NCBI GenBank assembly: GCA_002011745.1
Contig: MTOU01000010.1
Span: 1 to 37,945 of the forward strand
From: Nitrospirae bacterium JdFR-85
Lineage (GTDB): Bacteria > Nitrospirota > Thermodesulfovibrionia > Thermodesulfovibrionales > JdFR-85
DNA: 37,945 nt
Reading direction: 5' to 3'
Shown: positions 36,815 to 37,778 of the stretch, one piece after another
Position numbering within the stretch: position 1 is the first letter of the stretch
Layout of the letters: every line of letters starts with the position of its first letter
The notes under the pieces: generated by a model
What the model was told of the DNA's origin: nothing
The model's database searches: none
Seen by the model: the letters and a program-made list of their open reading frames with translations, nothing else
Program-made: the position numbers and the translations under genes

Positions 36815-37243
36815 ATGGGGTTTTGGGACAGGCTTAAAAGAGATATCAAGAAGGGGATTGATGAGGGTCTGGCAGCTCTGAAAGAGGGGACAGAGGTTAT
36901 TAAACACAAGGCTGAAGGTGTAACCAGTGATGTAAAAAAGAAGGTAAAGGTTTTTGAGATGAAACAGAAGATGCAGGCACAGTTGGCAGAGCTCGGTGGG
37001 AGAGTTTATGAAGTGGCCCTTGATAAAAGAAGGAATCCCTTTAGTGATGAAAAGGTGAAAAAAGTTATAGAAAAGATAAAAAAGCTCCATCTGCAGATCG
37101 AAAAACTGGAGGGTAAAAAGGAGGAGAAGTCCAGAAAGAGGGTATCAAAGACAAAGAAGGCCCAGAGCAAAAAGGCTTCCCCATCCAAGAAGAAGACGTC
37201 ATCCAAGGCTAAAAAGACAAAAGCCTCTAAGAAAAAGGTTTAA
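36815..37243 (+). CDS. Hypothetical helical protein with histone-like Lys/Ser/Ala tail
   Basis: A 142-residue cytoplasmic protein. Residues 1-95 are amphipathic helices and coiled coil (FWDRLKRDIKKGIDEGLAAL, MKQKMQAQLAELGGRVYEV, DEKVKKVIEKIKKLHLQIEK). From about 100 the tail is almost only Lys, Ser, Ala and Thr (KKASPSKKKTSSKAKK), like histone H1-type or other nucleic-acid-binding tails. No domain is recognised. AAAGGAGG before ATG 36815 sets the start. Its TAA is followed at once by the ATG of the selenoprotein gene, so they form a two-gene operon, but a functional link is unproven. Confidence 0.75.
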   Translation: MGFWDRLKRDIKKGIDEGLAALKEGTEVIKHKAEGVTSDVKKKVKVFEMKQKMQAQLAELGGRVYEVALDKRRNPFSDEKVKKVIEKIKKLHLQIEKLEGKKEEKSRKRVSKTKKAQSKKASPSKKKTSSKAKKTKASKKKV

Positions 37244-37486
37244 ATGAAGAGACTTAAGGTATTCACCTCTCCGGACTGAGCAGACTGTAAAGCCCTGAAA
37301 GAGTTTCTTTCAGCAGAGGGGATTCAGTATGAGAATAGAGATGTTTCTACAGATCCTGATGCTCGGAGAGAATTGATAGAAAAATACAATAGATTTGCTA
37401 CCCCAACAATTGTAATTAATGATAAAGTATTCGTGGGATTTAAAGAGAATCGGCAGGAAATAGAAGAGCTGCTCAGGAGGTTATGA
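37244..37486 (+). CDS. Glutaredoxin-like selenoprotein (Sec encoded by TGA)
   Basis: An 80-residue thioredoxin-fold protein that is complete only if TGA at 37277-37279 is read as selenocysteine. Residues 4-15 read LKVFTSPDUADC, i.e. strand beta1 then a U-x-x-C active site (U12, C15) where glutaredoxins have C-x-x-C. ALKEFLSAEGIQYENRDVS gives helix 1 and strand 2, FATPTIVI the cis-Pro loop, VFVGFKENRQEIEELL the last strand and helix. Everything after the TGA stays in the same frame to a normal stop. An 8-bp hairpin follows the TGA in the position of a bacterial SECIS (separate entry). The ATG abuts the preceding stop codon. It likely acts as a cytosolic thiol/selenol redox protein. A plain pseudogene is unlikely given the intact remainder and the location of the TGA at the catalytic position. 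Confidence 0.87.
37280..37313 (+). promoter_or_regulatory. Bacterial SECIS hairpin
   Basis: CTGAAAGA (37295-37302), loop GTT, TCTTTCAG (37306-37313): a perfect 8-bp stem with G as the first loop base. The loop begins 23 bases after the TGA. Known bacterial SECIS elements have a small apical loop starting with G and sit about 16-37 bases after the UGA, so this fits. The stem overlaps coding sequence, as required. Confidence 0.75.
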
Positions 37487-37489
37487 ATT

Positions 37490-37517
37490 ATATGGGGGGC
37501 ACTAAAGCCCCCCATAT
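37490..37517. terminator. Strong convergent terminator hairpin
   Basis: ATATGGGGGGC (37490-37500), loop ACTAAA, GCCCCCCATAT (37507-37517): a perfect 11-bp stem between the selenoprotein and the convergent ferredoxin gene. The T runs after it are weak on both strands, but the stem is the strongest in the window. Confidence 0.7.
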
Positions 37518-37518
37518 T

Positions 37519-37778
<260 letters not shown>

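Follow-up and report, generated by a model that had tools for sequence, protein, structure and literature searches.

The window analyzed here is a stretch of 37,945 nucleotides from Nitrospirae bacterium JdFR-85, and all positions refer to it unless another contig or locus is named. A gene at 37244–37486 on its + strand very probably (about 95%) codes for a functional selenoprotein with the glutaredoxin fold, in which a SECIS element directs selenocysteine (Sec) into the UGA codon at 37277–37279 and Sec12 and Cys15 form an oxidoreductase pair. The reading frame, the Sec machinery of the genome, the conservation of the TGA, the covariation of a hairpin and the fold were computed. The gene adds a well-supported selenoprotein clade to a group of uncultured Nitrospirota, in a form missed by ordinary gene calling. 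Most of the genomes compared were MAGs.

A glutaredoxin-like frame with one internal TGA

The frame starts with ATG at 37244 and ends with TGA at 37484–37486. Translated with TGA as Sec (U), its 80 codons give the product MKRLKVFTSPDUADCKALKEFLSAEGIQYENRDVSTDPDARRELIEKYNRFATPTIVINDKVFVGFKENRQEIEELLRRL. The TGA at 37277–37279 (codon 12) is the only internal stop and sits on the first active-site cysteine (S-P-D-U-A-D-C). Two further landmarks are invariant in alignments: Cys15 (TGT, 37286–37288), the predicted resolving cysteine of the UxxC motif, and Pro54 (37403–37405, A-T-P-T), in the cis-Pro loop of the thioredoxin fold. The product therefore carries the U-x-x-C (U12-A-D-C15) and the cis-Pro (P54) by which a Sec glutaredoxin is recognized. 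Pfam Glutaredoxin (PF00462) matched residues 5–62, across the TGA, with an E-value of 1.3e-15 and 57.8 bits against a curated cut-off of 22.9, indicating that the domain is present. The first-pass annotation, made from the letters of the window, had placed a TGA at the first catalytic cysteine in a frame open through the cis-Pro loop, and both points held.

It had also predicted that ordinary gene prediction would skip the gene or start it downstream of the TGA. The ORF listing contains no ATG/GTG/TTG ORF of at least 50 aa on the + strand at this locus, so ordinary gene calling would indeed miss it. Translation could instead start after the TGA, and the resulting short protein would have neither the first strand nor the catalytic residue. 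Such a start matches the expected automatic annotation of the locus, and in-frame ATG, GTG or TTG codons follow the TGA in some relatives. However, the stretch ahead of the TGA is conserved at the protein level (U follows S-P-T or A-P-N), no ORF of at least 50 aa starts after the TGA in the window, and the product would lose strand 1 and the active site. We consider a late start very improbable and retain the Sec reading of the whole frame.

Selenocysteine machinery in the genome

The window's genome (2.33 Mb, 47 contigs, 100% complete) contains a tRNA-Sec gene (selC) with anticodon TCA and genes for SelA, SelB and SelD. The four genes whose absence would have spoken against the proposal, and which the first-pass annotation had asked for, were thus all found in the same genome, as expected of a host of a selenoprotein gene. 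The selD gene is itself a Sec gene, with a TGA at the catalytic position (G-U-A-A-K) and, 17 nt after it, a hairpin with a GUU loop like that of the glutaredoxin hairpin, indicating that the organism already has another gene of the same signature. Among the 37 genomes tested, selA was found in all 37 and a clear tRNA-Sec in 29 at the strict threshold used.

These results bear on a rival reading in which the residue is not Sec: UGA would be reassigned, or read through by some other means such as insertion of Trp or a suppressor tRNA. No evidence for reassignment was found. TGA also terminates this ORF (37484), and homologues end at about this second TGA. The internal UGA occurs at the catalytic Cys position only, where relatives have Cys and not Trp. 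The Sec machinery is complete, and the gene has a SECIS-like hairpin. Reassignment is hardly credible here, and decoding of the UGA as Sec is preferred.

Two side observations concern the machinery. Genome G151 (L144, L166) has two selD genes; both contain Sec, and their SECIS hairpins differ. In each of the genomes G001, G009 and G164, a second tRNA-Sec-like match scores above the Rfam cut-off; it could represent either an additional selC or a related tRNA with a long arm.

Conservation of the TGA codon in a clade of relatives

A profile search over 176 genomes of the window's order found the gene in 25, of which 23 had one TGA and 2 had none. Codon-by-codon alignment placed every TGA at the same codon; the two exceptions have TGC and TGT. 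A scan of 84,980 named genomes added a TGA-containing member from a Zixibacteria MAG (L063), and its other clade matches were Nitrospirota MAGs. The clade thus has 26 members, 25 from Nitrospirota genomes of one order and one from the Zixibacteria MAG, with TGA at codon 12 in 24 and TGC or TGT in 2. In the tree, all 26 group together (support 100/99) and are separated from 21 Cys outgroup sequences. Cys occupies codon 12 in every outgroup homologue that extends to it, and in the two clade members just named, so Cys homologues at this residue, which were to be looked for, do exist. An in-frame TGA at the Cys position of homologues, with the frame open beyond it, is the pattern of a selenoprotein gene.

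In 396 genomes sampled evenly across the phylum, no members were found outside the same two families. In other phyla such as Desulfobacterota, a non-systematic scan found only Cys relatives where the codon was covered and aligned. The profile search did not find the gene in G001, a genus-mate of the window's organism.

The TGA could also mark a decaying or mis-sequenced pseudogene, namely a Cys glutaredoxin with a TGC/TGT-to-TGA mutation. TGA is one base away from both Cys codons, and an intact Cys homologue lies elsewhere in the window's genome (C1:122135). Against this, the same TGA is found in 24 genes of two Nitrospirota families and a second phylum, and genes that keep the TGA also keep the hairpin, except for one in which it is relocated. 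The remainder of each protein is conserved, and profile searches found no further stop inside the match in any clade member. Decay in close relatives, named beforehand as a sign that the proposal was wrong, was therefore not seen. A pseudogene is extremely unlikely; like reassignment and the late start, it was rejected on conservation, and a functional Sec gene is the reading we keep.

Sec rather than Cys in 24 of 26 members makes the clade a good case for asking why Sec is needed, and one genus has both versions. In that genus, L016 (Sec, with a relocated hairpin) and L014 (Cys) are sisters in the tree, and L015 (Cys) adjoins them. This pattern fits two Sec-to-Cys losses just as well as a single loss after which Sec was regained together with a new hairpin. 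For L016 and L014, a Sec-to-Cys-to-Sec reversal or a SECIS turnover is possible. The idea that the Cys form is tied to loss of the Sec machinery was rejected, as the Cys genomes G006 and G009 keep selA and selC.

A covarying hairpin downstream of the TGA

A hairpin with an 8-bp stem, CUGAAAGA-GUU-UCUUUCAG, lies at 37295–37313 on the + strand, with stem arms at 37295–37302 and 37306–37313. It starts 15 nt after the TGA, the UGA-to-loop spacing is 23 nt, and the 3-nt loop has G first. Published rules for bacterial SECIS elements specify a loop of 3–9 nt, a stem of 4–16 bp, G in the first two loop positions, a spacing of 16–37 nt and an MFE of -7.5 kcal/mol or lower (PMC13188914). Applied by hand, these rules accommodate the window hairpin, whose 40-nt segment has an MFE of -7.7 kcal/mol. 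The hairpin with a G-first loop at SECIS distance that had been read from the letters was thus recovered, and it covaries among relatives.

Fold energy was rejected as evidence. The UGA plus 49 nt (z = +0.98) and the 40-nt segment (z = -0.39) folded no better than shuffles, and better folding appeared only for the short hairpin chosen after the fact. Against a synonymous-codon null, the window hairpin, taken in its own register, had p = 0.0085. This per-sequence significance is modest (p about 0.01) because a large part of the hairpin falls in codons for conserved amino acids.

Of the 24 TGA genes, 23 have the hairpin. In an alignment of 22 TGA members, 97% of cells were paired and five of the eight pairs had changed on both sides; the covariation score exceeded that of every one of 500 column shuffles and of every slid register. 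RNAalifold predicted the same eight pairs with no prior pairing input. In members with a Lys-to-Arg change (AAA to AGA or AGG), the opposite Leu codon changed from CTT to CTC and the pair was kept. The Zixibacteria member L063 kept 8/8 pairs with a largely different sequence. The hairpin was lost in both Cys members. At the level of sequence, the evidence beyond chance is comparative, consisting of the shared position of the TGA in 24 genes, the covariation and the synonymous-codon null.

Ten of the 24 TGA members (L128, L130–L134, L137–L140) have a UUU or UUA loop and so depart from the G-first rule; the selD hairpins in their genomes, where read, keep GUU or GUG loops. L016 (1657–1701, - strand) keeps the TGA and has a different hairpin, AGGCCU-GUA-AGGCCU, nearer to it. 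The SECIS model thus fits the clade non-uniformly.

Fold and proposed mechanism

The 3D structure was modeled using AlphaFold2 with 18 homologues and with position 12 written as Cys. The mean pLDDT was 88.8, and the order of elements, beta-alpha-beta-alpha-beta-beta-alpha, was that of glutaredoxin. The best PDB matches of the model were Bacillus cereus BC3987 and Clostridium oremlandii cGrx1.

We infer the actual Sec insertion, the reaction chemistry and the reductant as follows. At UGA 37277–37279, the hairpin at 37295–37313 would serve the ribosome as a bacterial SECIS and be bound by SelB carrying Sec-tRNA(Sec), which the genome's own SelA, SelD and selC would produce. The UGA would be decoded as Sec, and translation would continue until the second UGA (37484). 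In the product, the Sec12-x-x-Cys15 pair would then act as a selenol/thiol-disulfide oxidoreductase: the Sec selenolate would attack a disulfide (or sulfenic acid) of the partner, and Cys15 would resolve the selenenylsulfide. This chemistry is assigned by analogy, because the catalytic Sec and resolving Cys of cGrx1 occupy the same alignment positions.

For the reductant, a search for gshB (TIGR01380), the one glutathione route searched, found no match in the window's genome, and the second glutathione-binding motif, read from the alignment, is G-F instead of G-G. These two features favor a reductant other than glutathione, and a thioredoxin- or ferredoxin-linked reductase appears more likely. 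Similarly, the surroundings of the active site and the lack of a gshB match suggest that a glutathione-independent, NrdH/YruB-like redoxin is more likely than a classical glutaredoxin. The original label, selenocysteine glutaredoxin, is thus supported in its Sec reading and its fold, with this one refinement of the type.

Relation to known Sec glutaredoxins

Sec glutaredoxins have been listed since 2005–2006 (PMC1088965, PMC1794560). Those surveyed, with UxxC, come from Geobacter sulfurreducens, Moorella thermoacetica, Alkaliphilus metalliredigens and the Sargasso Sea (PMC1794560, PMC1088965, PMC13188914), and the window gene shares their UxxC and a bacterial SECIS. Judged by titles, the literature searched contained nothing on a Sec glutaredoxin of Nitrospirae. 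The closest characterized Sec glutaredoxin is Grx1 of Clostridium (Alkaliphilus) oremlandii (cGrx1, PDB 7C10/7C12), a native selenoprotein with Sec first and Cys fourth in its active site (U13/C16) (PMC4479559, PMC7642778). It has the same fold as the window protein, with 42% identity over 77 columns and TM scores of 0.86/0.92. Differences are that its active site is U(C)PxC, whereas the present clade has U-x-D-C, and that it reduces a selenoprotein MsrA and is regenerated with glutathione, whereas the window's genome has no gshB match. No link to a copper ATPase is described for cGrx1 in the text consulted. By sequence, the best solved structure is the Bacillus cereus thioredoxin-like protein BC3987 (PDB 3ZIJ, E 9e-16), which is also the best by fold (38–40% identity) and has Cys in place of Sec (D-C-P-P-C in the alignment).

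Among NCBIfam models, the best match was the YruB family TIGR02196, nearly full length. The window protein scored 74.3 bits and 8 relatives scored 68–79, below the cut-off of 88.55, and the model description gives no selenoprotein family status. The UXX-star families (NF041212, NF041211 and NF041114) are small glutaredoxin-like proteins, many with Sec. The window protein scored 54.1, 47.4 and 19.2 bits against them, with cut-offs of 66, 100 and 72, respectively, and the 8 relatives scored 42.5–58.5 bits with NF041212, again under 66. In addition, UXX-star family 1 carries UxxT, whereas the resolving Cys is invariant in the present clade. Membership in UXX-star and YruB was rejected on the scores below curated cut-offs. 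As its scores fall under the nearest NCBIfam cut-offs, we class the group as a new clade within the established Sec glutaredoxins, the survey-listed ones being compared by description only.

Adjoining genes in the window

Directly 5' of the glutaredoxin gene lies a gene for a 142-aa coiled-coil-like protein with a Lys-rich tail (36815–37243, + strand). Its TAA abuts the glutaredoxin ATG, so the two are probably co-transcribed. It is directly upstream of the redoxin in 8/8 loci of the window's family, where it is divergent from ATP synthase genes, and its product matched no Pfam family above its cut-off. On the other side, a gene for a 62-aa 4Fe-4S ferredoxin (37519–37707, - strand; Pfam Fer4_13, E 5e-12) is convergent with the glutaredoxin gene and is kept at the same place in 8/8 loci of the family. 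Between the convergent genes, just 3' of the stop, is an 11-bp hairpin, ATATGGGGGGC-ACTAAA-GCCCCCCATAT (37490–37517). It is probably a two-way terminator; it has no clear T run and does not appear in the terminator scan listing.

A copper ATPase as recurrent neighbor

Among the 25 Nitrospirota members, 22 have a gene for a P-type ATPase downstream and in the same orientation: 5 of the 8 loci of the window's family and all 17 of family f13. The loci with a CopA neighbor are L050–L055, L057–L059, L061, L062, L126, L132 and L137–L140; L013, L047–L049 and L060; and L063. ATPases readable in full have two CxxC heavy-metal domains and a CPC motif, which is the Cu(I) type. At several f13 loci the redoxin stop overlaps or abuts the ATPase start (TAAATG, ATGA), and the Zixibacteria redoxin L063 sits between a CsoR-type repressor and CopA. 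None of the 55 Cys outgroup loci, some with short flanks, had such a neighbor. The 25 Nitrospirota loci are related, so the number of independent contexts is perhaps three rather than 25.

In the window, no CopA was found beside the redoxin, and the contig ends at 37945. A CopA relative of the window's genome, 67% identical, is on another contig (C1:20738–23140), so the redoxin–CopA link is inferred for this organism.

The adjacency suggests, from gene order, a copper-homeostasis role for the clade, and the CxxC metal-binding domains of the copper ATPase are the best candidate lead for a partner of the redoxin. In vitro, human Grx1 passes Cu(I) to ATP7B domains (PMC7057996). Judged by titles, none of the publications found was on a link between a selenoprotein glutaredoxin and a copper ATPase. 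We tentatively propose, at somewhat below even odds, that the clade is a copper-homeostasis selenoprotein whose redoxin keeps the CxxC domains of CopA reduced or hands them Cu(I). In f13, UGA read-through, and with it the selenium supply, could also set copA translation; in the window's genome, where the genes are separated, the pairing would be functional. Partners of such proteins are mostly unknown, and the recurrent neighbor offers a testable physiological partner; this association is the part that could surprise. At L046 and L056, a gene for a radical SAM-like protein occupies the site at which relatives have CopA.
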